Virus record (IMG/VR): IMGVR_UViG_3300021407_000037
Coordinates: 1 to 25,843 of that record
Reading direction: 5' to 3' (one strand)
DNA: 25,843 nucleotides
Source of the DNA: a virus
The notes under the pieces were generated by a model. That model searched no databases and was not told where the DNA came from. It worked only from the letters and a program-made list of their open reading frames with translations. Below are positions 2,767 through 18,805 of this stretch, in pieces. Position 1 is the first letter of the stretch; each line of letters starts with the position of its first letter. A program made the translations under genes and the position numbers.

Positions 2767-3240
2767 ATGGGTCGCATCTCTCGTGTCCTCTTCGCAGCTC
2801 CGTTGTTGGTATGTTCCATCGGCGCCCTAGGACAAGGGCCGAACGTCTTCATCGACGGGAACGGATCCGAGCAGGAAGCCGCTCGCATGACCAAGACCGT
2901 GCGCCGCGACGACCAAACGATGGAACTTGCACGGGACCTACTTAAGGCGTGCCATGACATCTCGATCACGCGAGAGGAAACGTCTTCACCCGACTACTTC
3001 CTGCTCTTGAACCGGGGCCGGGAGTCTGCCCTTAATCTCGCCGCTTCCCAGGTAATGCTGCTCGATGGCCAGAAGAACGTGATCTATTCCTCGAAGGAGG
3101 GCACGGTCGCGCATGCCGCCCGCGATGGATGTAAAGCAATCCTAGCCGACTGGAAAAAGAGGCGAGCCGCTGTTTCGCCAAAATCCGAACCACCGAAGAA
3201 CTGGTGGCAGACGAGTGCGCCACAGGAGAAAAAACAATGA
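2767..3240 (+). CDS. Exported hypothetical protein, first gene of a moron-like unit
   Basis: 157 aa, ATG at 2767, with GGAGGTG four bases before it. Residues 1-23 (MGRISRVLFAAPLLVCSIGA then LG) form a Sec signal peptide with likely cleavage before Gln23. The Cys at position 16 is not in a good lipobox. The mature part is small and basic-acidic, with SPDYFLLLNRGRESA, SQVMLLDGQKNVIYSS and a DGCKAI segment near residue 120. It ends in a proline/lysine-rich tail. I associate this pattern (a D-Y-x-x-x-L-x-R strand, an 'x-Y-S' hairpin and a helix with a single Cys) with uncharacterised exported proteins of Acidobacteriota, but cannot name a family. It is transcribed against all the phage genes, and its stop overlaps the next start by ATGA. 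A lysogenic-conversion or cell-envelope role is inferred. Confidence 0.7.
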   Translation: MGRISRVLFAAPLLVCSIGALGQGPNVFIDGNGSEQEAARMTKTVRRDDQTMELARDLLKACHDISITREETSSPDYFLLLNRGRESALNLAASQVMLLDGQKNVIYSSKEGTVAHAARDGCKAILADWKKRRAAVSPKSEPPKNWWQTSAPQEKKQ

Positions 3241-3548
3241 GCACCGCAAACGATCACGACCTGCTCGACTATTGTCCGAATTGCGGCTCTGTGGGCTATC
3301 CTCGGCTCCGCAAGCTCGGCTCGACGTGGGTCGAAGTGCTGCTCTGGCTTTCGTTCCTGCTTCCCGGAATTGTGTACTCGATCTGGCGCGCTTCGTCGAA
3401 GCAGTTGGTGTGCCCGAAGTGTGAGTACCCGGGAACAATCCCGCTGGACTCTCCGATCGCGAAGGCCGCCCTGGGCAAGATGCAAAAAACTAGCCCCGTT
3501 GCAGGGATCGCTTCTGGACCTCGCTCGACGCCGCAACTGCTCGCATGA
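3237..3548 (+). CDS. LITAF-like zinc-ribbon membrane protein, second gene of the moron
   Basis: 103 aa. I take ATG at 3237, not the earlier in-frame start at 3204, because it overlaps the upstream stop as ATGA and has AGGAG eight to nine bases ahead. The sequence shows CPNC (residues 13-16), then a single hydrophobic segment WVEVLLWLSFLLPGIVYSIW (about 31-50), then CPKC (60-63) and a following IPLDSP motif. A CxxC - membrane helix - CxxC layout with G-S before the helix and S-I-W-R after it matches a widespread bacterial family of LITAF-like zinc-ribbon membrane proteins of unknown function. The four cysteines probably bind zinc at the membrane face. The last 59 bases overlap the 3' end of the tape measure gene on the other strand. 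It may act at the host membrane, for example in exclusion, but this is inference. Confidence 0.8.
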   Translation: MSTANDHDLLDYCPNCGSVGYPRLRKLGSTWVEVLLWLSFLLPGIVYSIWRASSKQLVCPKCEYPGTIPLDSPIAKAALGKMQKTSPVAGIASGPRSTPQLLA

Positions 3549-5829
3549 TCATTTGCGGCGCGCTCGCTTGTAGGGCGCGCGAAATCTTTTCTTCCACTCC
3601 AATTTCCGATCCCTTAGCGTCGATGTGGAAAACGTTGTTCACTTGCCCCATGCGCAGCTGCGAGTTTGGAGTCACCGAACTGCCCGTAGGTAGGTTCAGC
3701 AACTCTGGGCCTTCTTCGCCCACCAGCGTCATGCCTCCCGGGGTGTAGTCGCTGCCGGCGGCATCCTCACCGTATCCACCGGTGTCTGCGACGTCATTAA
3801 CTCCGCCTCCGCCGCCCCCGCCGCCAATGCCAAAAAATCCGCCACTCCCGCTACCGCCACTTTTCAGCATGAGCTGTGCCGCTGCCATTTGCTGGTTCGC
3901 TGCGGTCTGCATGAGGGTAGCTGCGGCCTGCTGGGTCGATGCGGCGGCCTGCGCAGTCCCACCCCCGAGTAACTTCCCCAGGCCCAGGCTTTGCCCCATG
4001 CTGGTGCCTGACAAATCCTTCAGCCCCTGCATGATCTCTTTGTTGAGAAAGAACTTGAGCGCCGACTGCTCGAGGCTCAGAAAATATTCACGCCAGTTGG
4101 CCTTCCCGGTCGTGATGAGCTTCACGACCTGATCCTCGAAGCCCTTCATGCCCTGGCTGAGAATGTCGAATGTGAATTTTCCGGTGTTTGTCTCCTGCTG
4201 CATCTCTGCGAAGAACGAGCGTAGCCCGTCCTTCGCGTGGACGATTTTCTTCTCCGCCTGCTCCAATGCATCGCCCGCGTGTTGCACCGCGGCCGTGTAG
4301 GCAGCCTGATCGATCAGGCCTTTCTGCAGCAGCGTGTTCAGTTCGCCGACGGCTACTTTGTAGTGGTCGGCAGGCGACATTGCTTCCTGGAAAGCTTGCG
4401 CCGCGAGTTTCAGTTGCGCGCCCTGGTCGTCATTAAACACGGAGAGTTGCGCGCCAGCCGTTCCGCCGCTGCCGAGTTGCGGCGCGATCGGAGTGGCTGA
4501 AGGTCCCATGCCCGGCGCGGTCGTGTTCAGCAGTTGAGAGAGGTTGGGTGGTCCGGCCTGACGAGTGGGCAGTTTAGCTGTGGCTTCAGCTACGTCGGCT
4601 TCTCGCTTAGCCTTGGCCAGCACCTGATCGAGCCGCTTGTCGTATGCGTCGAGCGCCGTCATGGCTGCGCGCATGCCCAGGGCCGATTCCGTTGTTTCAC
4701 CGAGCGCACGGAAATCGGTGTCGGCTTGTTGCTTCATTAGCCGGATCTCGTTCGCTAGCTTCTTTATTGGATCCGTTTCCACCTGAAACTTGCCGAGCGA
4801 ACTGCCCATTTCTTTGTAGAGGGCGTTGAGCTTTTCCTGTGCGGTCGCTTGCTCTTTGATTGCTCGTTCGCGGGCCTGGGCAGCTTCGAGGCCCTCGCGG
4901 TCGCCCTCGATCGCCTTCGCTTCCTTCAGCAGGTTGATCCACTCTTGCACTGCGGCCAGTTGCTCAGGCGTGACCACGCTTTGCCCTTGCTGCTTGATCG
5001 TTTGGCCATGCGGTCCGAATCCGACGATCTGAGTGCTCTCCTCGCGCTCTTTTTGCTGTTGCAGTTCGCGAAGCTTCTGCGTGGCCATGTCCAGGTCGGC
5101 CTCGAAAATCTTCATGGCCTCGTGCGTGCCGTTCCGAGCGTCGAGAGCGAATGCCTGGTCGATGGCCACCTTCAGAGTTGCAAATTGCTTTTGCAGTTCC
5201 TCAGTGTTGAGTCCCGCGTTCGAGGTGAAAATGTTATGAGCCGCGTCGCCGATGAAGGCTTTGATCTGGGTCCACGTCCCTGCTGCCTCTTCCGCCTTTT
5301 TGTTTTCGTTCTCGATTGCAGCTGCGACCTGGTCGAATGCGCGCTTCGCCTCGTCGGCCCCCTCCATCGCTGCTTTCATCGCCGGGCTGAGTCCGTTGGC
5401 CTCGGCGATCTTCCGCGCATAGGAATCGGCGACCGATTGAATTACGTCTTCGGTCTTCGTGATTGAGTCTTTCCACTCGTCCTGGGCGTGCATCGCCTTC
5501 TCGATGCTCTTTGAGATTTTCTCAAACGATTCGAACGCGACAACGCTGATCGCAGAGAACGCGCCCACGCCGAGCACAGACTGTAGAGCCGTGGCCAGGG
5601 CAGGGAACTCCTGCGTCAGCAGTCGCGTCAGCGGCCGCGACAAGTGGATCCCGAGCGCTTCATCGATCAGCCGCAAGCTCTCGGCGCCCTCGCGCGAGGC
5701 GCGCTTCATCTCGGCCGACATGCCGAGAGTCTGGCTGTTGACCAGGCGAAACGCTTCCGGAGCGCCCTTCTCGAGTGCGGAAAGGTCGTAGCCGAGACCG
5801 ACGAGAATTGTTCCGAGGTTTGCGGACAT
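3490..5829 (-). CDS. Tail tape measure protein (lambda-type)
   Basis: 779 aa, ATG at 5829, four bases after the stop of the gp10-like gene. Tape measure proteins line the tail tube, fix tail length and are ejected with DNA. Seen here: a hydrophobic stretch near residues 77-102, long helical and coiled-coil regions (about 100-420) and a lambda-type C-terminal domain at about 550-603 (TGKANWREYFLSLEQSALKF). After these come a Gln/Ala-rich segment, a glycine run (about 657-673), the common MTLVGEEGPELLNLPTGSS motif near 697-715 and a helical tail. There are no cysteines. At 0.15 nm per residue the length would predict a tail of roughly 115 nm, which fits a siphovirus. The 3' end overlaps the convergent moron gene by 59 bases. 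Confidence 0.93.
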   Translation of the reverse strand: MSANLGTILVGLGYDLSALEKGAPEAFRLVNSQTLGMSAEMKRASREGAESLRLIDEALGIHLSRPLTRLLTQEFPALATALQSVLGVGAFSAISVVAFESFEKISKSIEKAMHAQDEWKDSITKTEDVIQSVADSYARKIAEANGLSPAMKAAMEGADEAKRAFDQVAAAIENENKKAEEAAGTWTQIKAFIGDAAHNIFTSNAGLNTEELQKQFATLKVAIDQAFALDARNGTHEAMKIFEADLDMATQKLRELQQQKEREESTQIVGFGPHGQTIKQQGQSVVTPEQLAAVQEWINLLKEAKAIEGDREGLEAAQARERAIKEQATAQEKLNALYKEMGSSLGKFQVETDPIKKLANEIRLMKQQADTDFRALGETTESALGMRAAMTALDAYDKRLDQVLAKAKREADVAEATAKLPTRQAGPPNLSQLLNTTAPGMGPSATPIAPQLGSGGTAGAQLSVFNDDQGAQLKLAAQAFQEAMSPADHYKVAVGELNTLLQKGLIDQAAYTAAVQHAGDALEQAEKKIVHAKDGLRSFFAEMQQETNTGKFTFDILSQGMKGFEDQVVKLITTGKANWREYFLSLEQSALKFFLNKEIMQGLKDLSGTSMGQSLGLGKLLGGGTAQAAASTQQAAATLMQTAANQQMAAAQLMLKSGGSGSGGFFGIGGGGGGGGVNDVADTGGYGEDAAGSDYTPGGMTLVGEEGPELLNLPTGSSVTPNSQLRMGQVNNVFHIDAKGSEIGVEEKISRALQASAPQMIMRAVAASSEVQKRSLQRG
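3558..3593 (+). terminator. Candidate intrinsic terminator after the plus-strand moron
   Basis: Ten bases after the stop of the plus-strand gene, 3558-3565 (GCGCGCTC) pairs with 3573-3580 (GGGCGCGC) as an eight-base stem with one G-U pair and a seven-base loop. GAAATCTTTTCTT follows. The T-rich tract begins a few bases late, so it is not ideal. It lies inside the tape measure coding region of the opposite strand, where a plus-strand terminator would protect the tail operon from antisense transcription. Confidence 0.5.
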
Positions 5830-7599: not shown

Positions 7600-8163
7600 T
7601 TACGACCAGGTCGCGGTGATGTTGCCCACGATCTTGATGGCGCCCGAGAACGTGATCGCCTTGTTGTATTCCGCGCCCATTTTGAAATCCTGCACATAGC
7701 CGGTGAAGACCAGCGTGGTGCCGTCGGTGGTGGTGATCTTCCAGTAGTTGAGCGCCGCGGATCCGGCCGTCGCGATGTTGGTGAGCAGCCCCTGGGTGAT
7801 CGGGTCGGTCGGATTGAGCACGCCGTCATATTGCACGGTGTCGCCGTCGACGACGGTCTTCAGCCACTCTTTGAAGATCGAGGGCGAGTCGAGGTTGGTA
7901 ATGTCGTCGAACTCAGCCTTGAACCCCGAGAAGCTGAACTTCTTCAGCTGCGCGATGTTGGTGTAGGCAGCGCCGGTAGTGCCTCCGTTGGCTAGCTTCG
8001 AGCCGTAGCCAGGGTAGGCGATGGTTGTGCCGAACAGCGCGGCGCTGGCCGCGGCGGCCAGCCAGAGCACAAACGTTTTGAGCTTCAGCGCGCCGAGCAG
8101 CAGGACCGCGGCGATCAGGATGCCGGCGGGATGGAAAGCAGCGATCAACAGAAAAGCGAGCAT
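7600..8163 (-). CDS. Major tail tube protein with hydrophobic N-terminal extension
   Basis: 187 aa, ATG at 8163 behind AAGGAG at ideal spacing. Residues from about 49 on are a lambda-type tail tube protein: AYPGYGSKL, then IAQLKKFSFSGFKAEFDDIT, NLDSPSIFKEWL, GLLTNIA, a VFTGYVQDFKMGA segment and a final TFSGAIKIVGNITATWS. That is the usual order of strands, with the GY(V)xxF and x-[FS]-x-[GA]-x-[IL]-x-[IV]-x-G elements. Residues 1-48 are strongly hydrophobic and form two membrane-like helices (MLAFLLIAAFHPAGILIAAV onward), which tube proteins do not have. The upstream gene is a paralog with the same AYPGYGSKL motif, and the chaperone pair follows. There are no cysteines. The excellent ribosome site supports the long form. 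Confidence 0.85.
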   Translation of the reverse strand: MLAFLLIAAFHPAGILIAAVLLLGALKLKTFVLWLAAAASAALFGTTIAYPGYGSKLANGGTTGAAYTNIAQLKKFSFSGFKAEFDDITNLDSPSIFKEWLKTVVDGDTVQYDGVLNPTDPITQGLLTNIATAGSAALNYWKITTTDGTTLVFTGYVQDFKMGAEYNKAITFSGAIKIVGNITATWS

Positions 8164-8198: not shown

Positions 8199-8630
8199 TC
8201 AGGCGGCGCCGGCTGGACCGGTCATGGCTCCGACGACGGTGAGCTTTGCGCTGAACCCGAGAGCTTTCGAAAGCTGCACGGTGAAGGGCACGTATTCCGC
8301 GACATAAGCGTTGAACTGATAAACGGTGATGCCATCGGAAAGCAGAATGCGCCAGGTGCCCAGCGTGAGATTCGCGTGCAGCGTGCCGAGTTCGAGCTGG
8401 CTGCCGTTCGCGGGATCGAGCACGCCGGCGATATCGATTTGGCCGCCATCGATCTGCACCGCCAGCGGCCGCTCGAAATTGTCGGGCGTGAGGAGGTTTG
8501 TCTGGTCGGTGGTGGTGTGCTTCGAGCCCGAGGGCAGGACTTTCTGCAGCTGCGCGATCGAGAAGTAATCCGTCCCGTCGGTGGTGAGTAGCAGCTTCGA
8601 GCCGTAACCGGGATAAGCTTTGGTGATCAG
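8199..8630 (-). CDS. Second tail tube-like protein, apparently CTG-started
   Basis: 143 aa if started at CTG 8630. The first ATG/GTG/TTG in frame is at 8459, which would remove the conserved N-terminus AYPGYGSKL (residues 5-13) and YFSIAQLQKVLPSGS, clearly homologous to the neighbouring tube protein. CTG at 8630 overlaps the upstream stop as CTGA, with GGAG five bases before it. The rest reads LAVQIDGGQIDIAGVLDP, LTLGTWRILLSDG and VQLSKALGFSAKLTVVGAMT, in the same strand order as the tube family. It is likely a tube subunit variant, a tail terminator-proximal ring or an inactive paralog. The 35-base gap before the next gene contains only that gene's ribosome site. Confidence 0.75.
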   Translation of the reverse strand: MITKAYPGYGSKLLLTTDGTDYFSIAQLQKVLPSGSKHTTTDQTNLLTPDNFERPLAVQIDGGQIDIAGVLDPANGSQLELGTLHANLTLGTWRILLSDGITVYQFNAYVAEYVPFTVQLSKALGFSAKLTVVGAMTGPAGAA

Positions 8631-9115
8631 AACTGCTCCGCTGGGCCCATGGCGATGGGCGGGTTCAGCGCCGGGTTGAGACTCTGGCTCTGCACCGTGT
8701 AGCTATCCGTGTAGAGCGCCTTCAGGCGCAGCACTGAGCGGAAGACATAACCACCTCCGCCGAGTTCGTAGGGATCATCGAAGTCGGCGATTACTTCAGC
8801 GAACTGCAAAATTGTGCCGTCTGGCAGCGGCCCAGTGAAATCGACGAGCAGGTCGCGAATGGTTTGCGAGAGCCTCCGCGCCATGAGCTGACTGTCGGCA
8901 TAGGAATCGAACTGCAGCTCGCCATCGATGAGCGCACTAGAGCCGTCCTGCGTCTTCTCAGCCGGTACGGCGTTCACCACATGCAGCACCACGTAAGGCC
9001 GGGTCGCCTGCTTCTGCGCCAGGCTGAAGAACACACTGTTGTTAGCCGGCGCCGCGAGCAGGGAACTGAGCGGCGTTGTCGTCGTGAGCAGCTCATAGAG
9101 TCCATTCGAAATCAC
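8627..9115 (-). CDS. Tail completion protein, DUF3168-like
   Basis: 162 aa. GTG at 9115 overlaps the stop of the beta-helix gene (GTGA, 9115-9112), so I reject the longer in-frame form from 9232. The protein begins (V)ISNGLYELLTTTTPLSSLL, followed by NNSVFFSLAQKQATRPYVVL, FDSYADSQLMARRLSQTI and FAEVIADFDDPYEL. DUF3168 proteins have this order: an N-terminal helix that ends in L-x-x-L-[LV], a P-x-[VI]-x-[FL] strand, a P-Y-V-V-x strand, then a Y-A-x-x helix and a terminal strand R-S-V-L-x-L-K. They cap or terminate the tail at the head side. Its place just before the tube genes agrees. Confidence 0.8.
   Translation of the reverse strand: MISNGLYELLTTTTPLSSLLAAPANNSVFFSLAQKQATRPYVVLHVVNAVPAEKTQDGSSALIDGELQFDSYADSQLMARRLSQTIRDLLVDFTGPLPDGTILQFAEVIADFDDPYELGGGGYVFRSVLRLKALYTDSYTVQSQSLNPALNPPIAMGPAEQF
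8628..8639 (-). promoter_or_regulatory. Ribosome binding site and CTG start of the first tube-like gene
   Basis: On the minus strand GGAG (8639-8636), five bases, then CTG (8630-8628), which shares bases with the TGA stop (8629-8627) of the upstream gene. There is no ATG, GTG or TTG in this frame between the upstream in-frame stop and 8459. The conserved tube motif lies upstream of 8459, so initiation must be at CTG or an even rarer codon, probably by coupling with the terminating ribosome. Confidence 0.55.
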
Positions 9116-10962
9116 GGCGTCACCGTCGCCGACAGCCCCGAGGGCGCACCAGGAGCCCCGGCGAAAGCATATGGATAGGCGCCCACGTCCCAAGCTCCGC
9201 TGGACGGACGCGCAAGGCACCCAGCTCCACAACTACCAGTGATTCCAAAAAATTGCGGAGCCCCCGTGGTCAGAGGTGAAAAACTTCCAGTGGCTAAACT
9301 CGCGAGATTAGCACCGCTCTGGTAGGCCGATGAACTCGCATTGGGAATGAGATAGGAACTGGTGAGGCTGGGGTTGGTGGTTGTGCTGTGAGCGTCGAAT
9401 CCGAAGCCTTGCCAGGTCGCCCATGATGCGGTATTCCCGTTGGCCTGGCTTCCCCAAAATTTCCCGCTTACGACTGGCGCCCAGATGTTGTGGTCGAAAT
9501 TGCCGAACACTGCCGCCGTCGCCGCCACCGTGGTGATGTAGGTGTTGATATCGTACGAAAACGATCCGGTGTTCCCTACGCAGATGTTGTTTCGATAGTC
9601 CGAACCGCCGGCATTCGTGAGGTTGAAATTCGCGCAGGAGTCCTGCGAGTTTCCCGAAACAGTCGTGTTGTTCCAGACCTGCATATACTTCCCGTAAGGG
9701 TGGGGGTCGCCGCCGCCCTGTCCCAGCCACATGACCCCGAACTCATTGTGGCCGGACGCGCTGTTGGTGGTCACCAGGACGTTATTAAAAATCGCTGCGA
9801 TCATGGAGTCCGCTGCGTAGATGAAGCCCGTTGGGCAGGTGTTCGTAAGGTCGCCATGGATGTAATTGTTATAGATCACCGCATTGAAAGGACCTGCCGA
9901 TCCCCCATAGTTGAACCCTATGACCCCGTCCTGGTGGAATGGACTGGAGCAACCGCCACTGCTCTGCCAGTTCGACCAATTCGTGATGTCGTTGTCGTGG
10001 ATTAAGAGGTTTCCGCAAGTTTCGGAAGATGCACTCCCGCCGAAGTTTATGCCCCAATCGTGGTCCGCCAGCGTGTTGTAGGCGATCTCGGCGTTCGTGC
10101 AGTCGCCACTAGGGTCAAGCGAATAAACGACATTCGCTTTACACTGGCCCGAGATAACGTGGTTAACCGAAGTGCTGGTGACGTTGTTGTTGACGACAAG
10201 GCATTGCGAACCAGCGCCCGCTGTGTCCCCTGAAACCTGGACGTAGATGTTCTGGATCGTGAGGTTCCGAATGACGCTATAGGTTAGGTTGGTGAACGAC
10301 ATGCCCAGCGAGGCCTTTGTGTTCGCCTTTCCAGTGCCGTTCGCGGTGTTCTGGATCACAAGATTCGTCGCTGCGAATGCAGCTCCCGTCGCAGTCCCCG
10401 GAGTTGTTGTCAGTTGCAGCAAGGTGGAACTAATAACCGAACTGACCTGGTACAGGGTGCAGCCCGGCCCCGAAGTGACGATGCAGATCGCGACCAGTCC
10501 TGTGGGGAAGGTTGAACCGGAAACCCACGACACACAATTTGACGTGCAGCTGCTCACGGCTGAATTCGTTGTATTGACCGCCCCGCTGTACAGTCCTCCG
10601 TCGATCAGGACATAACTCCGCCCGCTGCCCGTGATCGCGCCGCTCGACGTGGAGAGATAGGGAGCCTGCAAAATGACAGGTCCCTGGTCGAACAAGAATG
10701 CGGCCATGTTTCCGGAAGTTCCCGAACCCAGGACGGACAGCAACGATCCATTCGCGCTGGCGGTGTAGGTTCCAGGACAGACGTGATTGTTCTTTCCCGG
10801 TCCGTCATCACTGGAGGCGTGCGAAGTCAACGCTCTCGCGTTCGAGCAACTGGTAAGCCCCGTGCCACTGCCTTGCGCCGTCGGAGCGAAGTAGGCGTCC
10901 GACGCAAAGGCCGAAACGCTCAGCAGCGCAATTCCCAGCAGAAATTTTAGTTGTGCTTGAAT
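9112..10962 (-). CDS. Exported right-handed beta-helix protein (tailspike/lyase-like), ATT start
   Basis: About 616 aa if started at ATT 10962, which has GGAGG six bases ahead and gives a textbook signal peptide (QAQLKFLLGIALLSVSAFA, cleavage before Ser). No canonical start exists nearby, and the frame upstream is a shadow of the preceding gene. From about residue 30 (DAYFAPTAQGSGTGLT) the protein has the opening of pectate-lyase/parallel beta-helix proteins. Many Asn-rich rungs follow (YSVIRNLTIQNIYVQVSG, CGNLLIHDNDITNWSNW, FNAVIYNNYIHGDLTN, YMQVWNNTTVSG, HNIWAPVV). The C-terminus GAYPYAFAGAPGAPSGLSAT looks like the start of a fibronectin-like linker. Several cysteines occur in pairs. Polysaccharide binding or cleavage is inferred from the fold; no catalytic site can be assigned. 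Confidence 0.8.
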   Translation of the reverse strand: MQAQLKFLLGIALLSVSAFASDAYFAPTAQGSGTGLTSCSNARALTSHASSDDGPGKNNHVCPGTYTASANGSLLSVLGSGTSGNMAAFLFDQGPVILQAPYLSTSSGAITGSGRSYVLIDGGLYSGAVNTTNSAVSSCTSNCVSWVSGSTFPTGLVAICIVTSGPGCTLYQVSSVISSTLLQLTTTPGTATGAAFAATNLVIQNTANGTGKANTKASLGMSFTNLTYSVIRNLTIQNIYVQVSGDTAGAGSQCLVVNNNVTSTSVNHVISGQCKANVVYSLDPSGDCTNAEIAYNTLADHDWGINFGGSASSETCGNLLIHDNDITNWSNWQSSGGCSSPFHQDGVIGFNYGGSAGPFNAVIYNNYIHGDLTNTCPTGFIYAADSMIAAIFNNVLVTTNSASGHNEFGVMWLGQGGGDPHPYGKYMQVWNNTTVSGNSQDSCANFNLTNAGGSDYRNNICVGNTGSFSYDINTYITTVAATAAVFGNFDHNIWAPVVSGKFWGSQANGNTASWATWQGFGFDAHSTTTNPSLTSSYLIPNASSSAYQSGANLASLATGSFSPLTTGAPQFFGITGSCGAGCLARPSSGAWDVGAYPYAFAGAPGAPSGLSATVTP

Positions 10963-11765
10963 GCCGCGCCTCCGCAGACCCAGTTCGAACTTCCAGACAT
11001 CGTGAATGAGTAAGTTGCCGTGCCCGTGCCGCTGCTCAGGTTGTAGGCCGCGTTGATTTGGTTGCTCCCGTTCGCGCGTTTTCCGTTGGGATCGTTGGTA
11101 GTAAGGGAACCGGTCGGAGTCCAAGTCACCGCTGCCCCCTGCAGTCCCATGCCGACCAGCAACTCGGTTGAGCCCGCTACCGAGCCGGACGCGCCGCTCG
11201 TGCAAGTCGTATTGAAGGCGCTGTTCCCGTTGCTCACGACGGAAACGTCATAAGGCGAACCAGGAATTCCGGCGCTGTGCTTCCACTCCTGAATCACAAC
11301 TCCGATCTGGCCCCCGGAAGTCGTTGAGCTCACCGTGACCGTGTCAGCTCCAGAACTGCCGGCCACAGCCCACCACCCGCACCACCAGCCCATGTTCGTG
11401 GAGCTGGTGTCGTGAATGCAGCCGTTGACATCTGTGTTCGCGTTTCCCGTGCAGGAAGAGTTTCCGTTCGGGCACAGCGCCGTCCAGGTATTCGTCTTGC
11501 TGTCGGCAACGGTGAGGGTCGTTCCGCCATTGGTCTCGTTAGCAAACGCCAGAAGCAGGTGGCCGCTTCCTATGCTGGAAGGATAAGCAACAGCTTCACT
11601 CGTGCCCGCACCGCCGTTAGAACCATTGGCGCTGTTTTGGGCTAGAGAGAATCCCGTGATGGCGGCGCTGGGACTCAAAACCCCGCCGCCAACGATCGGA
11701 GGAGACTGCGCGAGACCTATGCTCGATAACAACAGGAAGAGAAAAAATGGCTTATTGCTGAACAT
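10947..11765 (-). CDS. Exported jelly-roll-like beta-sandwich protein
   Basis: 272 aa. I prefer ATG at 11765 (fifth codon of the longest frame) because it starts a clean signal peptide, MFSNKPFFLFLLLSSIGLAQ, with cleavage before Gln. It overlaps the upstream gene by 14 bases. The mature part contains GSGHLLLAFANETNGGTTLT, VADSKTNTWTAL, a Cys-rich middle with MGWWCGWWAVAGSSGADTV, TVSSTTSGGQIGVVIQEW, and a SYSFTMSGSSNWVCGGAAF ending. I recognise this as a common beta-sandwich (strands L-L-x-[AV]-x, V-x-D-x-x-x-N-x-W, G-x-[VI]-x-x-[IV]-x-E-[WY]) that appears in phage particle and surface proteins. Six cysteines suggest disulfides. Binding or adhesion is a guess from the fold. Confidence 0.7.
   Translation of the reverse strand: MFSNKPFFLFLLLSSIGLAQSPPIVGGGVLSPSAAITGFSLAQNSANGSNGGAGTSEAVAYPSSIGSGHLLLAFANETNGGTTLTVADSKTNTWTALCPNGNSSCTGNANTDVNGCIHDTSSTNMGWWCGWWAVAGSSGADTVTVSSTTSGGQIGVVIQEWKHSAGIPGSPYDVSVVSNGNSAFNTTCTSGASGSVAGSTELLVGMGLQGAAVTWTPTGSLTTNDPNGKRANGSNQINAAYNLSSGTGTATYSFTMSGSSNWVCGGAAFKHN
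10960..10973 (-). promoter_or_regulatory. Perfect Shine-Dalgarno in front of an ATT start
   Basis: On the minus strand GGAGG (10973-10969), six bases CGCGGC, then ATT (10962-10960). It lies within the last codons of the jelly-roll-like gene, so the two genes overlap by 16 bases. ATT starts are rare in bacteria but known, for example in infC. The alternative is a downstream CTG, which would shorten the signal peptide. Confidence 0.5.
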
Positions 11766-13401
11766 AGCGGATCTCACCCGAGGTCTGGCCCGTGCTCGAG
11801 AGCAGCAGGCAGATGTTGTCGGCCGCGGTGGCCGTTTTGTAGACCCAGTTGCCGCCCGTTCCCTTCACCAGGCCGCCGTTCGCTGCGAAATTCCAGCCGG
11901 TGGCTGCCGTGGATCCGCCGGCCATGCCGGCGATGCTCGTAGCGCACGTCGTGCCCGTGCCTTCGACCAGTGCGATGTTTTGCGCGGTCGCGGTGACAAC
12001 GTCGATTGCGCAAATGTAGGTCTGCTTCGACGACGTGCCGGCGATGACCTGGCCGCTGGCGGTGAGGTTGATCACTGTCTGCGAGCCGGCGTTCCCTCCG
12101 CATGGATCGAGCACCGGAGCGGTGCCCCCGACTTGCGCGACATTGACCGATTGATTCGCGGCCAGCGCTACGTTCAGCGCGGTTGTAAGGTTTGGCTGGT
12201 TGGGGTTGATCTGCACGACAAGCGACTTGTCGGCTGCTGCCGCCTGCGTCGATGCAGCTTTCACCGCTGCTGGCCCATTCGTTCCGTCGGCGATCGCGGT
12301 GTAGAGGGGATTGGTCGCACCCGTGGCAGCGCCAGCGACCTGGTTAATGTTCGTGCTTTGGTTGGCCGCGAGTGAGCTGTCATTTGAGATGGTCACGCGC
12401 GGAATTCCAGCTCCGCTCGCGCCCGTGCCGGTGCTAACAGCCGTGCCACCCACATAGTTCAGGTCGACCAGTTGCTGGCCTTTCACGTCGAGCTGCTCTG
12501 CCGAGCTGTTGCCGCTGGTGATGGTGGGCAACGTGGAATTGTAAGTGCCTCCCACGTTCAGGTTGTTCGCCGGCGCGGCCGCATTTTGCGCCGCATCGAA
12601 GATTCCGCCGGCGTTGCCGATGGTGCGCACGTTCCACGTGCCCGATTGCGACACTGCGGGCGTGTTCGTCACGAAAGCATTCATGCCGGCGACGGCGACC
12701 GCGCCTGGCGAGGTGCCATAGTTCGAAGGTGCCCCGAGCGAAGTGCCGGCCAGTTTGTAGAGGTTGATGAAGAGGCTGCGATCGTTGGTGAGCTGCGCGA
12801 TGCCGGCCTGCCCGCTGGTGAGGGGGGTGATGCTCGAGCTATAAAGGCCGCCGATCGGGTTGAAGCTGGTGGTGCCTTGCGTGAACGCGCCTTCATCCGC
12901 CAGCGAGGATCCGCCGGAACTGCTGCAACCGGTTTTGCAATTGATCTCCACATAGCCGCTGCCATCGACCGGGCTTGTCACCGAAACATTGCCCCCTCCG
13001 GAACTGGAGCCGCCGCTGGCGCTGAGCAGTGTGGTGTTGACGGTGATAGTGACGCTTGTGCCTCCGGTCCAGCTGGGCACGATGGTGAACGAGTCGTAGG
13101 CTTTTGAAATCGATGGAGCCCGGATGACGTTCGACGTGCTGGTGTAGGTATCTAGCGAGTCGCAAGAGCCGCCCTGCTTGCAGCCCGAGACCACGATCGA
13201 GACCGTTGCAGGCGAGCCCGTGATCACGTATTCGAACGATGCCGTCATGGCTCCGGCCCCGTTCAGCTCGGTGAGTGTGAGGCCGCTCGAGGTGACAGTC
13301 TTGCTGTCGACGCTGCGTACCTGCGCCTGCGCGCCTGGCACCAGGCACAGCGCGAAGAACAGCAGCATGCCGATCGGCAGAAGATAGCGATTTGGTTTCA
13401 T
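11752..13401 (-). CDS. Exported fibre-like structural protein
   Basis: 549 aa. Start set at ATG 13401, not the earlier TTG at 13470, because it begins a signal peptide (MKPNRYLLPIGMLLFFALCL, cleavage AQA before Gln) and has AAAGGAAA upstream. Residues about 27-130 are a beta domain (GLTLTELNGAGAMTASFEYV, SFTIVPSWTGGTSVTITV), then a Ser/Gly hinge (SGGSSSGGG). A long region of short repeats common in phage fibres follows: GIPRVTISNDSSLAANQS, NPLYTAIADGTNGPAAV and LNVALAANQSVNVAQVG. The C-terminal 110 residues (VIAGTSSKQTYICAIDVV, then TAQNIALVEGTGTTCATSIA and ICLLLSSTGQTSGEIRYV) form a domain I have seen at the C-terminus of many phage particle proteins. Function beyond fibre-like structure is unknown. 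Confidence 0.75.
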   Translation of the reverse strand: MKPNRYLLPIGMLLFFALCLVPGAQAQVRSVDSKTVTSSGLTLTELNGAGAMTASFEYVITGSPATVSIVVSGCKQGGSCDSLDTYTSTSNVIRAPSISKAYDSFTIVPSWTGGTSVTITVNTTLLSASGGSSSGGGNVSVTSPVDGSGYVEINCKTGCSSSGGSSLADEGAFTQGTTSFNPIGGLYSSSITPLTSGQAGIAQLTNDRSLFINLYKLAGTSLGAPSNYGTSPGAVAVAGMNAFVTNTPAVSQSGTWNVRTIGNAGGIFDAAQNAAAPANNLNVGGTYNSTLPTITSGNSSAEQLDVKGQQLVDLNYVGGTAVSTGTGASGAGIPRVTISNDSSLAANQSTNINQVAGAATGATNPLYTAIADGTNGPAAVKAASTQAAAADKSLVVQINPNQPNLTTALNVALAANQSVNVAQVGGTAPVLDPCGGNAGSQTVINLTASGQVIAGTSSKQTYICAIDVVTATAQNIALVEGTGTTCATSIAGMAGGSTAATGWNFAANGGLVKGTGGNWVYKTATAADNICLLLSSTGQTSGEIRYVQQ

Positions 13402-13430
13402 GGAAGTTGTTTCCTTTCGAGAGGAAGCGA

Positions 13431-13823
13431 TCAACTGGCGCCGCCCGCGTTCTGGTTGATCTCGAAGCAATAAATCTTCAGCTGCCAGTGCAGCTCGTCG
13501 ATGTCTTCGATCGCGGCGATTTGAAAGACGCGCGTTTGCCCAGCCTCATTGAGCTGGATAGTCATGTTCTCTTCGACGCCGAGCTGATAAGTGATGACCG
13601 CCAGGTGCGAGACGCGCTGCGCGATCTGCTGCGCTTTGTCGAGTTCGTCGCCGGCTAGCGCATAGAGCGCTGCCCACGAAGTGAACTGCGCGCTGGGCTG
13701 CCCGCTTGAGCCATCGGTGTTGCGCGAACCCGGCGAGCAGAACGTGATCATCCGGTTCATGGCTCCCGGAGTCACATAGCGGCCCTGGCGTGGCAGACCA
13801 GCACTCAGTCGAGGCAGCGGCAT
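13431..13823 (-). CDS. Head-tail adaptor (SPP1 gp16 / HK97 type stopper)
   Basis: 130 aa. ATG at 13823 directly follows the TAG of the upstream gene (TAGATG). The sequence has the Phage_H_T_join order: an N-terminal strand NRMITFCSPGSRNTDG, then FTSWAALYALAGDELDKAQQ, a HLAVITYQLGVEENMTIQL strand pair, FQIAAIEDIDELHWQLKIY and a short tail. Head-tail adaptors of this family form the ring that closes the head and receives the tail, and they carry the W-A-x-[VIL]-x-x-[LA] element seen here. Its place, close to the connector gene, agrees. It has no signal peptide, unlike the genes on both sides of it. Confidence 0.88.
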   Translation of the reverse strand: MPLPRLSAGLPRQGRYVTPGAMNRMITFCSPGSRNTDGSSGQPSAQFTSWAALYALAGDELDKAQQIAQRVSHLAVITYQLGVEENMTIQLNEAGQTRVFQIAAIEDIDELHWQLKIYCFEINQNAGGAS

Positions 13824-14270
13824 CTAGTTCGTCTGAAGAACGGCGTATTTCACGGCCGCGTTGCTGCAGGCCAGGTAGACGTTCTGCGTGCCTGACTGCA
13901 CCCAGCCGGTGAGGAACTTCATCTGGATCCCGGTGATGACGCCCGCAGCCACGGAGTAGGTGGTGAGCGATGTGTCGGTTCGACCGAGATTGTCGGCCAC
14001 GCTGGTGACCGTGAAGGTGTAGGTGCTGCCTCCGGTGTTGTCGACCAGCAAAACCTCGCGGCCGGTGGCGGCGAACGAGTTTCCGTTCGAGGCGTCGCAC
14101 GCGGTGAAGGTGATCGTGAGTTGGCCGGCCGTGACGGCCGCGTTGTTCTGCACCAGCACGACAGTGGTGAGCGGCGTCTGCGCGGCGAACGCGCTGAGGC
14201 TCGCAAAGGTGACCATCAGCGCAATGGCGATGATTCGGGTGAAGAGCGAAGGCTTATTTTTTTGCGACAT
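13824..14270 (-). CDS. Exported small beta protein, decoration-like
   Basis: 148 aa, ATG at 14270 with AAGGAG seven to eight bases ahead. Residues 1-29 form a Sec signal peptide (MSQKNKPSLFTRIIAIALMV to SAFA) with cleavage before Ala/Gln. The mature domain of about 118 residues contains TTVVLVQNNAAVTAGQLTIT, GREVLLVDNTGGSTYTFTV, TSVADNLGRTDTSLTTYSVA and a final GWVQSGTQNVYLACSNAAVK. The V-x-D-x-x-G-R-x-x-[DS]-[LI] step followed by a G-W-x-Q-S/D-G-x-x-Y-L ending is a pattern I know from small phage proteins near head-tail genes, thought to be decoration or minor structural proteins. Those relatives usually lack a signal peptide. Two cysteines could form one disulfide. Confidence 0.7.
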   Translation of the reverse strand: MSQKNKPSLFTRIIAIALMVTFASLSAFAAQTPLTTVVLVQNNAAVTAGQLTITFTACDASNGNSFAATGREVLLVDNTGGSTYTFTVTSVADNLGRTDTSLTTYSVAAGVITGIQMKFLTGWVQSGTQNVYLACSNAAVKYAVLQTN

Positions 14271-14283
14271 GGGTGAGTTCTCC

Positions 14284-15186
14284 TTAGCCGCGGGTAGCGG
14301 CCTTGATGTGAATTTTCCAGCGATAGAGCAGGCGCTGCAGGCGCGGGTTCTCCGAAATCGATCCGGAGACCGACAGCTCGCGGTTGTAGTAGCCCTCGGA
14401 AATCAGAGTGCGCATAGCCGAGCGCAGCGTGGCCGGCACTGCGGTGCCATCGTTGCCGTAGCCGGCGATGTAGTGAATGGAAACCGCGTTTGGAACGTAG
14501 AGCACGGGCGGCCAGCTCTGCCCCGGCATCGGGAAGATGCGGCCCGGGCAGGTGATGTTGTCGTAGAGGAAATCGCCCGCGGGCGCCAGGCCCTGATTCG
14601 TCCAGGTCAGCCCAGCGTCAGTGGTGGCGCCGTCCTCGGTAATACTCCATGCCGGCGTGGAGGCCCCGGAGCTGACCGTGCCATCTTCGTTGGCCTGAGT
14701 CTCATCCACTGCAGTTACTTCCTGCAGGTTGCCGTTTGAGTCCTGGATCTCGTCGCCGATCGCGAATTTTATATTCGGAGCCCAGGGCGCCGGCGCCGGC
14801 AGCAGCGAGAGAGTCTGAGTGGTGACGGAGTCGACATAGTCGATGCGCGTGACCTCGCGCAGCGGCGAGCGCAACAGCTTGAGCATCTGCGAGTAGTTCC
14901 ACAGAGTGGTCGAATACCGCGGCAGCGAATAGTAGCTGGGCGGGTAGGCCATCTGGCTCATCACGGAGTCGACGAAATAGGGGAAGCTGTCGAGCACCTG
15001 GTTGTAGCCCTTGTTCACCAGCGAGCGCCCGGTATAGCCCTCCACCTCTTCGCGAGCGGCCTGAATCAGTTCCGCGATGAACGTGTCGTCGGCCGTGACG
15101 CCGACCGGCACCTTCAGATGGTTCTTGACGTCGGCCAGCAGCAACGGCTCGGCCAGCGGCGCGATCTCTTCGGTTATATAAGCCAT
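14284..15186 (-). CDS. Head-tail connector (gp6-like / phiE125 gp8 family)
   Basis: 300 aa, ATG at 15186, ten bases after the stop of the repeat fibre gene. The N-terminus PLLLADVKNHLKVP, DDTFIAELIQAAREEVEGYT and GRSLVNKGYNQVLDSFPYF is the classic gp6-like connector opening: L-x-x-x-K-x-x-L-[RK], D-D-x-x-I-x-x-L-I-x-x-A-R-x-x-[VA]-E and T-x-[RK]. The C-terminus PATLRSAMRTLISEGYYNRE matches P-x-x-[LI]-[RK]-x-A-[ML]-x-x-L-[VI]. Together they form the ring attached to the portal. A middle insert, about residues 135-215 (GDEIQDSNGNLQEVTAVDET and onward), makes it longer than the usual 180-220 aa. It has no signal peptide although both neighbours do. Confidence 0.87.
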   Translation of the reverse strand: MAYITEEIAPLAEPLLLADVKNHLKVPVGVTADDTFIAELIQAAREEVEGYTGRSLVNKGYNQVLDSFPYFVDSVMSQMAYPPSYYSLPRYSTTLWNYSQMLKLLRSPLREVTRIDYVDSVTTQTLSLLPAPAPWAPNIKFAIGDEIQDSNGNLQEVTAVDETQANEDGTVSSGASTPAWSITEDGATTDAGLTWTNQGLAPAGDFLYDNITCPGRIFPMPGQSWPPVLYVPNAVSIHYIAGYGNDGTAVPATLRSAMRTLISEGYYNRELSVSGSISENPRLQRLLYRWKIHIKAATRG

Positions 15187-15196
15187 CAGTTAGAGC

Positions 15197-17272
15197 TCAC
15201 GGGATCGTGGTGACGACTTCGTTCGAATAGCCGCTCTGCTGCGCGCCGACGAACGCAGCCACGACGTAGTAGTAAGTTTGGCCGGCGATCGCCGTGGGAT
15301 CCTGAGCGGTCTGCGTGTTGGGGGCGAGCGTTTGAATCGCCGTGTAAGGACCGCCGCTGGTCTGCGACTGATAAACAATTTGCGAAGTCACGCCGACAGT
15401 TTCGGAGTGACGCCAGATCAGCCTGGCACCGCTTTGCGTCGCTGTCACCCGCAGCGCGTAGGGTGCCGCGACTCCAGCTTGCGTTGTGGTCTGGACGACA
15501 TTCGAGTAGGCGCTTTCGATCGTGCCGACCAGCGCGGTCACCGCGTAGAAATAAGTTTGTCCTGGAGCAACGGTGACGTCGGTGAAAGTTTGCGCCTGCG
15601 GCGAGAGCTCCGCGATCACGCTGAACCCGGAGCCGCCGTCGCGGTAGAGATTCTGCGACGTCACCAGCACGCTGGGCGAATAGCGCCAGACCAGGACGGA
15701 GGCGCCCGCTGTTTGCGTGACTCTTAGCCAGATTGGCGCTGCGGCGAACGGAGTGGTCGCCAGGGTCAGACTGTCGGGCGTGTTCAGCGCCTCGCCCAGA
15801 CTTACAAACGAGTTCTGCTGGCTGTGTGGCACCGCGGCCAGCGCGGCGCTGGTGCTCAGACTTTCGCTGAGTGGCTGGAACCAGGCTGTGTGCTCCGTCA
15901 GCGAATCGCTGAGGCTCAGCGTTTCGCCGAGCGCCTGTGCGTGCCCGTACTGTCGCGCGAGGGAATCGCTGGTGGTGAGATCTTCGGTGAGGTCGATCTG
16001 GGTGATGGAAGCCAGGCTCAGAGCCGCGCTGGTGCTCAGAGACTCGCTGAGTGTCTGGGACCAGGCCACCTGCCGCGCCAGCGAGTCGCTGGTCGTCAAG
16101 GTTTCGCTGAGCGCATAAACATGGCCATCCACTCGTGAGAGGTAATCGCTGGTGGTCAGGCTCTCGCTCGGTGACTGAACCCACCCGACCTGCCGCGCCA
16201 GCGAGTCGCCGGTGGTCAACGTTTCGCTGAGTGACTGGATCCAGGCAACCTTGCGCGCCAGCGAGTCGCTCGTGCTCAGGCTCTCGGTGAGTCCGACGTT
16301 TCCCTGGAAGTTGGTGGAGAGCGCATCGCTGGTGGTCAGACTTTCGCCGAGCGCTTGCGTCCAGCCGACCTGGCGCGTCAGCGAGTCGCTGGTCGTCAAC
16401 GTTTCGCTGAGCGACTCGGGCCAGCCCGCCTTGCGTGCAATCGAGTCGCTCGTGCTCAGACCCTCGATGAGGTTTGGGCCAAGCAATGCCGTCACGCTCA
16501 TCGAGTCGCTGGTAGTGAGTGATTCGCTGAGCGACTCGGGCCAGCCTGCCTGGCGCGCAATCGAGTCGCTCGTGTTCAGGCTTTCGGTGAGCCCGATATT
16601 CCCCTGGAAGTTGGTGGAGAGCGCATCGGCTGTGATGAGGCTTTCGCTGAGCGATTCCGGCCAGCCCGCCTGTCGCGCAATCGAGTCGCTCGTGCTCAGA
16701 GTTTCGCTGAGAACCTGCGCGTGAGAATACTGCCGCGCCAGGGAATCGTTGCTGCTCAGGCTCTCGCTCAACCCGGTCCCGTGCTGGGCATTGCTCGAGA
16801 GCGCGGCGCTTGTGCTCAACGTCTCGCTCGGCTGCCGAGAGCCGGCAAACTGCCGCACCAAATTGTCGCTGGTGGTGAGCGACTCGGAGAGAGACCCCAG
16901 ATACGTCAGAGGAATGTAGGCCGTGCCCTGGTTGGAGTTGCTGCTCTCTACTCCGTTGAGCTGCCAGACGGCCGTGGTCACGTAGTAGTACGTTTGCCCG
17001 CTGATCGCCGTGGCATCGGTGTAGGAAAGCCCGCTGACGCAGTCGGCGATCCGCGTGTACGGACCACCGCTCGCGACGCCGCGATAAACCCGATACCATA
17101 CGGGGCTGGAGCTGGAGGCTGTCCAGTTCAGCACCACCTCGTAAGGGTTCGTGGGTTCCGGCGCAACGGCGATGGAGTCGGTTGTGCACAGGTATTCCGA
17201 CGGCGCTGCGGATCCGCTTTGCGCGGCAGCCGAAGCGCCCAGCAGGGCAAAGATGAAGGCGACTCGCCACAC
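15197..17272 (-). CDS. Exported repeat fibre protein: FN3-like domains flanking nineteen 20-residue repeats
   Basis: 691 aa. GTG at 17272 begins a signal peptide (MWRVAFIFALLGASAAAQ) four bases after the stop of the upstream gene. Residues about 38-120 resemble a fibronectin type III domain (VVLNWTASSSSPVWYRVYRG, GQTYYYVTTAV). Residues 128-508 are about nineteen units, almost all exactly 20 residues, with consensus L-S-E-[ST]-L-[ST]-T-S-D-S-[LI]-A-R-Q-x-G-W-x-x-[SA]. Two more FN3-like domains (about 510-600 and 601-691) share the GQTY[FY]Y[AV]V[TA]A signature with the first. Such layouts suit a stiff extended shaft with binding ends on the cell surface or phage particle. Only two cysteines are present, both in the N-terminal domain. 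Whether it is a virion fibre or a host surface adhesin is not decided by sequence. Confidence 0.78.
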   Translation of the reverse strand: MWRVAFIFALLGASAAAQSGSAAPSEYLCTTDSIAVAPEPTNPYEVVLNWTASSSSPVWYRVYRGVASGGPYTRIADCVSGLSYTDATAISGQTYYYVTTAVWQLNGVESSNSNQGTAYIPLTYLGSLSESLTTSDNLVRQFAGSRQPSETLSTSAALSSNAQHGTGLSESLSSNDSLARQYSHAQVLSETLSTSDSIARQAGWPESLSESLITADALSTNFQGNIGLTESLNTSDSIARQAGWPESLSESLTTSDSMSVTALLGPNLIEGLSTSDSIARKAGWPESLSETLTTSDSLTRQVGWTQALGESLTTSDALSTNFQGNVGLTESLSTSDSLARKVAWIQSLSETLTTGDSLARQVGWVQSPSESLTTSDYLSRVDGHVYALSETLTTSDSLARQVAWSQTLSESLSTSAALSLASITQIDLTEDLTTSDSLARQYGHAQALGETLSLSDSLTEHTAWFQPLSESLSTSAALAAVPHSQQNSFVSLGEALNTPDSLTLATTPFAAAPIWLRVTQTAGASVLVWRYSPSVLVTSQNLYRDGGSGFSVIAELSPQAQTFTDVTVAPGQTYFYAVTALVGTIESAYSNVVQTTTQAGVAAPYALRVTATQSGARLIWRHSETVGVTSQIVYQSQTSGGPYTAIQTLAPNTQTAQDPTAIAGQTYYYVVAAFVGAQQSGYSNEVVTTIP
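15750..16891 (-). repeat. Tandem 60-bp coding repeats (about 19 units)
   Basis: The repeat core sits at an exact 60-base spacing through 16891-15800, with one longer unit near the 3' end. The most conserved part encodes S-E-[ST]-L-[ST]-T-S-D-S; the last six or so residues vary. A second level is visible: units at 16261 and 16561, and at 16321 and 16621, match each other better than their neighbours (both pairs include NFQGN[IV]G and A-L-S-T), pointing to a 300-bp, five-unit duplication. All units keep frame. Confidence 0.9.
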
Positions 17273-17275
17273 GCA

Positions 17276-17818
17276 CTAGATGGAGACGGTCCAGGTGATC
17301 GTGAGGGTGTCGGTGTTCGCCAGGTTGACCTGGGTGAAGGCGGCCTCAAACACCATGGTGCCCGAGCTGGAGGCATTGAACATGCCGGCCTTCTGCACCG
17401 ATTGCGAAGCGGTCGCTGTCCAAGTGTGGGCGAGCGTCCACGTGGAAGTGCCACTCGAGTGGGCATAGGTGCCTTGAGCCCGCGCGCAGCCGTTGGTGGT
17501 GATTTCGCTCGGCAGTGTGCAGCTCGAGGACCCTGCAGCGCAATCGCCGGCCGCGGGCGCCGTCGCGTCGTTGGTGAGAGCGATGTAGTTCACCGTAGCC
17601 GGCGGCGCGGAGGTGTTGCCCATTGCGCTTGCCTGCCAGTCGGCTCCGCCGGTGGTGCGCAGGTTGTGAATCTCGTTGTCGTAGAAGATCGTTCCATCCG
17701 CATGGCGCGCCACAATGTGGACGTTGACCTCGCGCGTGGGATGGACCTCGACTTGAGAAAAAGCGCTGGCGGCGACTAATAGCGCGACCAGCAGGCTGAG
17801 GAATTTGCGTGTTTTCAT
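17276..17818 (-). CDS. Exported phage protein of unknown function
   Basis: 180 aa, ATG at 17818 with AAAGGA five to six bases ahead. Residues 1-22 (MKTRKFLSLLVALLVAASAF then SQ) are a Sec signal peptide. The mature domain contains VNVHIVARHADGTIFYDNEI, NLRTTGGADWQASAMG, VNYIALTNDATAPAAGDC and, at the end, MVFEAAFTQVNLANTDTLTI. The order 'H/R-x-x-x-G-x-[VI]-x-D-x-E-x-x-N-L-[VR]-[TV]', then a T-x-[VIL]-x-Y-[IM]-A-[LV]-[GT]-x-[GD] strand, then F-x-x-[VA]-x-L-x-x-x-D-T-[LI]-x-[IV]-[TV]-W is one I know from phage structural proteins in head-tail regions of soil bacteria. Three cysteines. Its stop is directly followed by the GTG of the repeat fibre gene. Confidence 0.72.
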   Translation of the reverse strand: MKTRKFLSLLVALLVAASAFSQVEVHPTREVNVHIVARHADGTIFYDNEIHNLRTTGGADWQASAMGNTSAPPATVNYIALTNDATAPAAGDCAAGSSSCTLPSEITTNGCARAQGTYAHSSGTSTWTLAHTWTATASQSVQKAGMFNASSSGTMVFEAAFTQVNLANTDTLTITWTVSI

Positions 17819-18175: not shown

Positions 18176-18733
18176 TTAGCTGATGGTGACGCCGCTCGAC
18201 TGCACCGGGATCCACTTGCCGTTCCGGGCGACGAAGGTGACGAAGCTACCTTGAGTGCCGTTGAACGTGGCCAGGTGATGCGACGGTGTGATCACGTTGG
18301 CACTCGCAGTCACGGTATGTGCGTGGCCACTGTTGTCGATGATCGTGATCTCGAGCCCGTCGTTGCCGCCGGCCGAAGGCGCGCCCGCGACTGGAGTTGC
18401 CAGCGTGGTTGCGTTGACGCCTGCAGTCTCGATGAAGCTGGTGCCGCAGATCGGCACGATAGTGGTCGTCGAGAGGCCGGGAGGCAGATTGAGCGAGCCG
18501 CCGCCGCCCGTGATGACGTCGGTGGTGCCGGTGAGAACTTCGAACTGGAAGGGCAGATTGCTGCTCTGCCCCACGACAGTGTCGTAGTCCGGCGAAAGCG
18601 GACCGACCATGGGGCCGGGGCTTTGCGCGGTGATGAACGTGCCGAAGAGGCCCGCAGCGGTCAGCGTGGCGACAACAGTCTTCCAGCCGAGCGCGTGCAG
18701 GAACAAGAGAGCGAAAAGCGCAGCGTGTGTCAT
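18176..18733 (-). CDS. Capsid-adjacent protein with membrane-like N-terminus, decoration candidate
   Basis: 185 aa. ATG at 18733 is chosen over the longer GTG form from 18793, which would run through the capsid terminator; GGAG lies upstream of 18733. It begins MTHAALFALLFLHALGWK and continues with a second hydrophobic stretch (TVVATLTAAGLFGTFI), so two membrane helices or a poor signal peptide. The rest is a beta-rich domain with LPFQFEVLTGTTDVITGGGG, GNDGLEITIIDNSGHAHTVT, HHLATFNGTQGSFVTFVARN and GKWIPVQSSGVTIS. Phage proteins placed straight after the major capsid are often head decoration proteins, and the 'D-x-x-G-H-A-H' and 'F-x-x-x-x-G-x-x-[VI]-x-F-V-x-x-N-G-K-W' elements fit a small beta barrel. 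The membrane part is unexplained. Confidence 0.65.
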   Translation of the reverse strand: MTHAALFALLFLHALGWKTVVATLTAAGLFGTFITAQSPGPMVGPLSPDYDTVVGQSSNLPFQFEVLTGTTDVITGGGGSLNLPPGLSTTTIVPICGTSFIETAGVNATTLATPVAGAPSAGGNDGLEITIIDNSGHAHTVTASANVITPSHHLATFNGTQGSFVTFVARNGKWIPVQSSGVTIS

Positions 18734-18772: not shown

Positions 18773-18805
18773 CGAAAAACCCGGCCGCCGCACGGGCGGC
18801 CGGGT
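18773..18805 (-). terminator. Strong intrinsic terminator after the major capsid gene
   Basis: On the minus strand ACCCGGCCGCC (18805-18795) pairs perfectly with GGCGGCCGGGT (18789-18779) around a five-base loop CGTGC, eleven base pairs with no mismatch. TTTTTCG follows. It begins 25 bases after the capsid stop codon. Stem, short loop and U-run are all ideal, so most transcripts through the capsid gene should end or be stabilised here. Confidence 0.88.

Follow-up and report, generated by a model that had tools for sequence, protein, structure and literature searches.

Sec-type signal peptides on virion-type genes in the head–tail region of a clade of HK97-type siphophages

Tailed phages are taught to assemble wholly in the cytoplasm. 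Among the described systems closest to the one considered here, Lom of phage lambda is an exported protein coded among the tail genes of a temperate siphophage (PMC12309495), the T4 antiholin RI carries a cleavable Sec signal and acts in the periplasm (PMC8385771), and the coat protein pIII of filamentous phages is a virion protein with a Sec signal (PMC8310372). Superinfection exclusion proteins such as Llp, Cor and Ltp are small lipoproteins or membrane proteins that are made in infected cells or lysogens and block the receptor or injection. Here we describe a run of genes with predicted Sec signal peptides among the head–tail genes of a member of a group of tailed soil phages, IMG/VR virus record IMGVR_UViG_3300021407_000037, whose 25,843 bases are referred to as the window. 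The same phage is present in a longer contig, IMGVR 3300050821_016371, the source of locus L002.

Every late gene of the window lies on the minus strand, in the order terminase, portal, protease, HK97-type major capsid protein (MCP), signal-peptide stretch, tail tube, chaperone and tape measure, which follows the late-module order of HK97-type siphophages (TerS-TerL-portal-protease-MCP-connector-head closure-terminator-tube-chaperone-tape measure). The connector, head closure and tube proteins were assigned with Pfam or PHROG, the MCP by tblastn to annotated capsids, and the remainder by homology and order. Lom is one outer-membrane protein encoded after gene J, whereas here five to eight genes per phage are found between capsid and tape measure, and several of the window's predicted exported proteins belong to virion-type families. 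The genes also differ from morons, which are defined by a promoter and terminator of their own between late genes: they adjoin or overlap their neighbors within one operon, and a scan limited to consensus sequences matched no promoter on the coding strand, while sites resembling terminators were no commoner than expected by chance. Like filamentous pIII and pVIII, some are virion-type proteins with Sec signals; filamentous phages, however, contain single-stranded DNA, assemble in the membrane during extrusion and have no terminase/portal/capsid module, whereas the window carries such a module, and the phages considered here, which are tailed and have an HK97-fold capsid together with terminase, portal and lysis genes, fall outside the filamentous coat-protein class. 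Unlike RI, the genes sit in the head–tail stretch, and no relation to holins or lysis genes was found; unlike the exclusion lipoproteins, no lipobox was spotted by eye among the window's signals. The export signals on virion-type genes suggest that these phages move would-be parts of their particles out of the cytoplasm, something not known in tailed phages. The initial annotation knew of no described system of this kind, and our search of the open-licence literature likewise turned up no account of a system in which structural genes of tailed phages carry Sec signals.

Signal peptides downstream of the capsid gene

Genes were called with a self-written codon-based caller, and signal peptides with a home-made rule that requires a charged start, a nine-residue uncharged hydrophobic core and small residues at −3/−1. 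Window genes are designated by letters (Table 1). Six of them had initially been annotated as Sec-exported, at positions and on a strand that we confirm. In five (C, G, D, E and F) the starts are well placed and the Sec-type signal peptides are clear, with a positive n-region, a hydrophobic core and small −3/−1 residues. The sixth, H, has a signal-like stretch in frame with an unproven start, since neither ATG, GTG nor TTG lies near it. The gp6-like connector and the head closure protein, described from the outset as free of signals, serve as internal controls, and neither passes the rule. The pattern is wider than first noted: B, a spike-like protein after the capsid gene, and TTP2, a second tail tube paralogue, also have strongly hydrophobic N-termini and good Shine–Dalgarno (SD) sequences.

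Searches with the MCP yielded 60 viral loci. The 29 that also hold a member of the B or D family were treated as the clade, and 27 loci as the outgroup. Across the clade, signal-peptide calls fell on 75 of the 239 genes located downstream and on 0 of the 138 located upstream of the MCP; the outgroup gave 7 of 135, at least three of which are false. Five control phages (lambda, HK97 and three MCP relatives) gave three calls among 71 late genes, namely lom, a probable moron and a clear false positive. By family, no call fell on the MCP (63 sequences), portal (49), protease (52), connector (46) or head closure protein (28), and calls covered all 11 homologues of E and all 22 clade copies of D; three further D calls (L036–L038) are false positives of the rule. 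The AFA-type cleavage site is kept in clade D homologues.

Proteins built for an oxidizing compartment show paired cysteines. Over all gene families, mature signal-bearing proteins have even and odd cysteine counts in a ratio of 51:13, against 65:87 in proteins without a signal (p 6e-7). The tail tube proteins contain no cysteine, as initially annotated, although one of them, TTP2, does carry a membrane segment.

An artefact, whether through misplaced starts, N-termini that are hydrophobic by chance or host genes joined to a viral contig by misassembly, is very improbable and is already contradicted by the comparative data. H lacks a canonical start, and the rule returns positives in 3% of shuffled proteins and 9% of shuffled signal-bearing proteins; nevertheless, the same slots and signals recur in independent contigs from many samples, most coding signals are under purifying selection, and strong SDs precede extended and unextended starts alike. 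For B, D and TTP2, SDs at both forms rule out wrong start codons. Capsid-targeting propeptides, considered from general knowledge, were discarded as an alternative, the signals being of Sec type.

The D family and its cysteine pair

D is a protein of 148 residues whose AlphaFold model (mean pLDDT 80.5) consists of an N-terminal helix and a beta-sandwich. Compared with viral models, it matches mostly phage proteins of 103–119 residues (E down to 2e-6, TM score up to 0.75), a length that leaves no space for a signal. Lower-ranked matches are annotated 'virion protein' or 'structural protein', and PHROG 16194, 'tail protein', matches D weakly. These phage virion proteins of about 115 residues (BFVD matches; PHROG 16194) share the predicted fold of D and a slot near the connector or tail tube; D differs in its predicted cleavable signal and in C58/C135. 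Foldseek against the PDB gave nothing below E 0.02 for D, and neither D nor B gave a tblastn match in named phages. The gene lies between connector and head closure and, in distant phages, just upstream of the tail tube gene.

An alignment search recovered D in 80 loci, from which 68 distinct sequences were aligned. Some copies bear a signal peptide and others start at the domain (MAQT..., MPRV..., MPFT...), usually with a strong SD in either case. Among complete signal-bearing copies, 36 of 42 have both cysteines, five have neither and one has a single cysteine, whereas none of the 21 complete copies without a signal has either (Fisher 1.6e-10). The relatives without a signal thus also lack the cysteine pair of the window's D. 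On a tree built from the mature domain only, the signal state changes nine times, at least six of them on well-supported branches.

It had been proposed at the outset that relatives starting after the extension would make export unlikely. Such relatives do occur for B, TTP2 and D, but they show repeated gain or loss of a selected signal and not misannotation, because strong SDs stand at both start forms and the cysteine pair of D tracks its signal. The related suggestion that structural genes had captured export signals gains direct support for D, B, TTP2 and C, each of which has homologues in the same or a related slot without the N-terminal part. The tracking of the signal by the cysteine pair, together with the repeated gain or loss, indicates that D is probably exported into an oxidizing compartment. 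Export of at least D, and likely of C, E, F and G as well, is the simplest reading of the sequences and in our view a very likely one.

Distant D homologues in other phage types (L168:3019, L171:1371 and L173:3019) have signal peptides of their own, apparently gained independently, and lie next to the tail tube gene.

Hydrophobic extensions and fibre-like genes

B and TTP2 do not conform to the Sec pattern, since most of their extensions do not begin with a charged n-region and no cleavage site is conserved among them. The AlphaFold model of B has a helix at residues 3–30, and its fold matches phage tailspike and capsid-spike domains. Of 31 B homologues, 17 have the extension and the other 14 start at or just past its end, all starts having strong SDs. 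TTP2 matches PHROG 158 from residue 61 (E 7.9e-12), and lambda-type tail tube proteins (PHROG 158, Pfam Phage_TTP families) align to its body, residues 46–187; unlike them and its neighbor TTP1, it begins with a hydrophobic hairpin. The extension is present in five of eight TTP2 homologues, and the other three start MTTTAYPG or MTTTAIPG, equivalent to FGTTIAYPG of the window. In the eight loci where both genes are readable, the extensions of B and TTP2 are either both present or both absent. Twenty-two extensions (810 residues) contain no acidic residue, against a background of 9.9%, and those of both proteins tend to finish in LFGT. In most pairs, nonsynonymous divergence (pN) of the B extension is 0.4–0.6, compared with 0.03–0.12 in the protein behind it.

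Because no cleavage site is conserved, these two extensions look like anchors; they are the least explained part of the picture. They best fit a different explanation, in which non-exported virion proteins have hydrophobic N-termini that, for instance, insert into the next host's membrane at DNA entry or serve as assembly anchors. The long acid-free stretches, the missing AxA site and the common LFGT end all agree with it, and the conserved LCLVP core of E would be odd for a discarded signal. As an account of the whole set it is nevertheless unlikely: D, C, F and G have textbook n-, h- and c-regions with small residues at the cleavage site, the cysteines of D track the signal, and signals diverge freely in sequence while their chemistry is kept, as the pN of the B extension illustrates.

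In one related locus (L107), two more late genes (2031–2555 and 4178–4819) start with long hydrophobic stretches, ending in one case in SGTT much as in B, which suggests more anchored-type proteins in related phages. Between MCP and B lies an 11-pair GC-rich stem (18779–18805) with T residues after it on the minus strand; similar stems seemingly occur in relatives, and it resembles a putative terminator following the HK97 capsid gene. Rfam and tRNA scans of the window gave no matches. For TTP1, homology points to a CTG start at 8630, where CTGA overlaps the preceding stop and GGAG lies upstream; relatives use ATG or GTG, and an open reading frame (ORF) listing with standard starts omits the first third of the gene.

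Between the window and locus L003, whose MCPs are 94% identical, C and G are absent from the latter, no counterpart exists for F or H, and only part of E aligns (51%), while the remaining common genes are 59–96% identical. C is 85–87% identical in L008 and L014, and L015 has a homologue without a signal; G is 43–44% identical in L008 and L014 over its C-terminal part. Other signal-bearing proteins occupy the H slot in L003 and L014. In E, the signal is better conserved than the protein behind it. Like receptor-binding parts, the fibre-like genes are exchanged between phages whose capsids are 94% identical. Domain searches with 40 signal-bearing proteins gave scattered Ig-like matches only, with no tailspike chaperone domain, and PDB sequence searches gave nothing for H, D or B and only FN3-type domains for G. 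The repeats of G (SESLxTSDSLxRQ) lie between its FN3-like domains and make out-of-frame ORFs long.

Table 1 Features of the window discussed in the text (SP, signal peptide; positions in the window)
Feature	Position	Strand	Start and N-terminus	Description
B	18176..18733	-	33-aa hydrophobic N-terminal extension	Spike-like beta protein after capsid gene
C	17276..17818	-	ATG, SD AAGGA, SP MKTRKFLSLLVALLVAASAFSQ	PHROG 5417-like (E 1.9e-5); SP copies in L008, L014
G	15197..17272	-	GTG, SP MWRVAFIFALLGASAAAQ	FN3-like domains, ~20 degenerate SESLxTSDSL repeats; SP copies in L008, L014
gp6-like connector	14284..15186	-	no SP	Pfam PF05135, E 6.8e-10
D	13824..14270	-	ATG, SD AAGGAG, SP ...FTRIIAIALMVTFASLSAFAAQ	Small beta-sandwich virion-type protein; cysteine pair C58/C135
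Head closure protein	13431..13823	-	no SP	Pfam PF05521, E 7.6e-6
E	11752..13401	-	ATG, SD AAGG, SP MKPNRYLLPIGMLLFFALCLVPGAQAQ	Fibre-like variable protein; conserved LLxFxLCLVP in SP
F	10947..11765	-	ATG, SP MFSNKPFFLFLLLSSIGLAQ	6 cysteines; closest phage without relative
H	9112..10962	-	ATT at 10962, GGAGG 6 nt upstream; start unproven; SP-like stretch	Beta-rich, repeat-like; 16 cysteines
TTP1	8199..8630	-	no extension	Tail tube protein; PHROG 158, E 8e-7
TTP2	7600..8163	-	SD AAGGAG; 45-aa hydrophobic N-terminal hairpin	Second tail tube paralogue
Moron	2767..3240	+	SP	Next to tape measure gene; homologues L080:18481-18930 (L005's contig), L180:10402-10833

Proposed maturation route, probable hosts and neighboring genes

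Beyond the signals, their conservation, their coupling with the D cysteines and their gain and loss among homologues, all observed directly, we favor, at a probability of roughly 0.4, the reading that virion-type and accessory proteins are exported by Sec, oxidized in the periplasm and joined to virions at lysis. The late operon of these temperate HK97-type siphophages would make accessory proteins of the head–tail region as Sec precursors, the host Sec machinery would export them, and signal peptidase would cleave the signals of D, E, F, G, C and probably H. The mature proteins, including D as a virion-type protein that has acquired its signal several times, would fold and form disulfides in the periplasm. 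After lysis by holin and endolysin, the proteins accumulated in the periplasm would come into contact with completed particles, to which D and the fibre-like proteins could attach in the manner of optional outer parts added after assembly. The hydrophobic anchors of B and TTP2 would stay uncleaved and probably hold both proteins in the inner membrane until, or while, particles are assembled. The fuller proposal, in which virion maturation in this lineage takes place partly outside the cytoplasm through Sec export, periplasmic disulfides and addition at lysis, with TTP2 and the spike protein tethered to the inner membrane, is possible but doubtful.

Almost as likely, and ranked just below virion docking, is a role for the exported proteins at the host envelope, with no incorporation into virions. 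During late infection or lysogeny they could work in the periplasm, in the outer membrane or at the surface, excluding other phages, changing adhesion or stopping released progeny from sticking to debris. The signals and the cysteine parity agree with such export, the phages are temperate (four clade contigs contain integrases), and lambda lom, which our rule detects, provides a known exported protein among tail genes (PMC12309495). One locus (L144) even retains a D copy without a signal next to a signal-bearing one. In most phages, however, the signal-bearing copy is the only D copy. Docking is preferred because D, B and TTP2 belong to virion-type families and have signal-free homologues in structural slots, because the genes, unlike morons, are part of the late operon and show no promoter or terminator match of their own, and because the fibre-like genes turn over as receptor-binding genes do.

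Several points weigh against docking. We know of no tailed phage that acquires parts from the periplasm, and cytoplasmic assembly offers no obvious place for a tail tube protein anchored in the membrane. The signal calls depend on a home-made rule instead of SignalP. The coupling of signal and cysteines in D is strong by counts and not significant by independent pairs: six such pairs differ in signal, of which three also differ in cysteines, all agreeing, too few for significance. Five signal-bearing D copies do without the cysteines. In L144, the adjacent paralogues (2532–2978 and 3025–3387) comprise a signal-bearing copy without the cysteine pair and a signal-free one, and because of this neighbor the signal-bearing copy may have another job. 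If docking nevertheless proved correct, these phages would have a second, periplasmic stage of virion maturation; under the envelope reading they would have made a new kind of envelope protein of their own from virion parts. A signal peptide would, in addition, no longer be a ground to deny a phage gene structural status.

The hosts are probably Acidobacteriota, judging from a pair of genes. An Acidobacteriota genome contains a homologue, 42% identical, of the window's opposite-strand moron, and immediately adjacent to it lies a tape measure gene that is 36% identical to the window's over 516 residues, with an integrase-like gene nearby; this locus (L180) is an Acidobacteriota prophage remnant. 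Searches of 396 Acidobacteriota genomes gave only distant MCP matches and one marginal D match within a 1034-aa frame. The contig of L005, which holds another homologue of the moron, has a lysis-type gene set. Overlapping the moron's end and the tape measure gene is an ORF at 3204–3548 (plus strand) whose product has a transmembrane stretch as well as two CxxC motifs and looks like a zinc-ribbon membrane protein.

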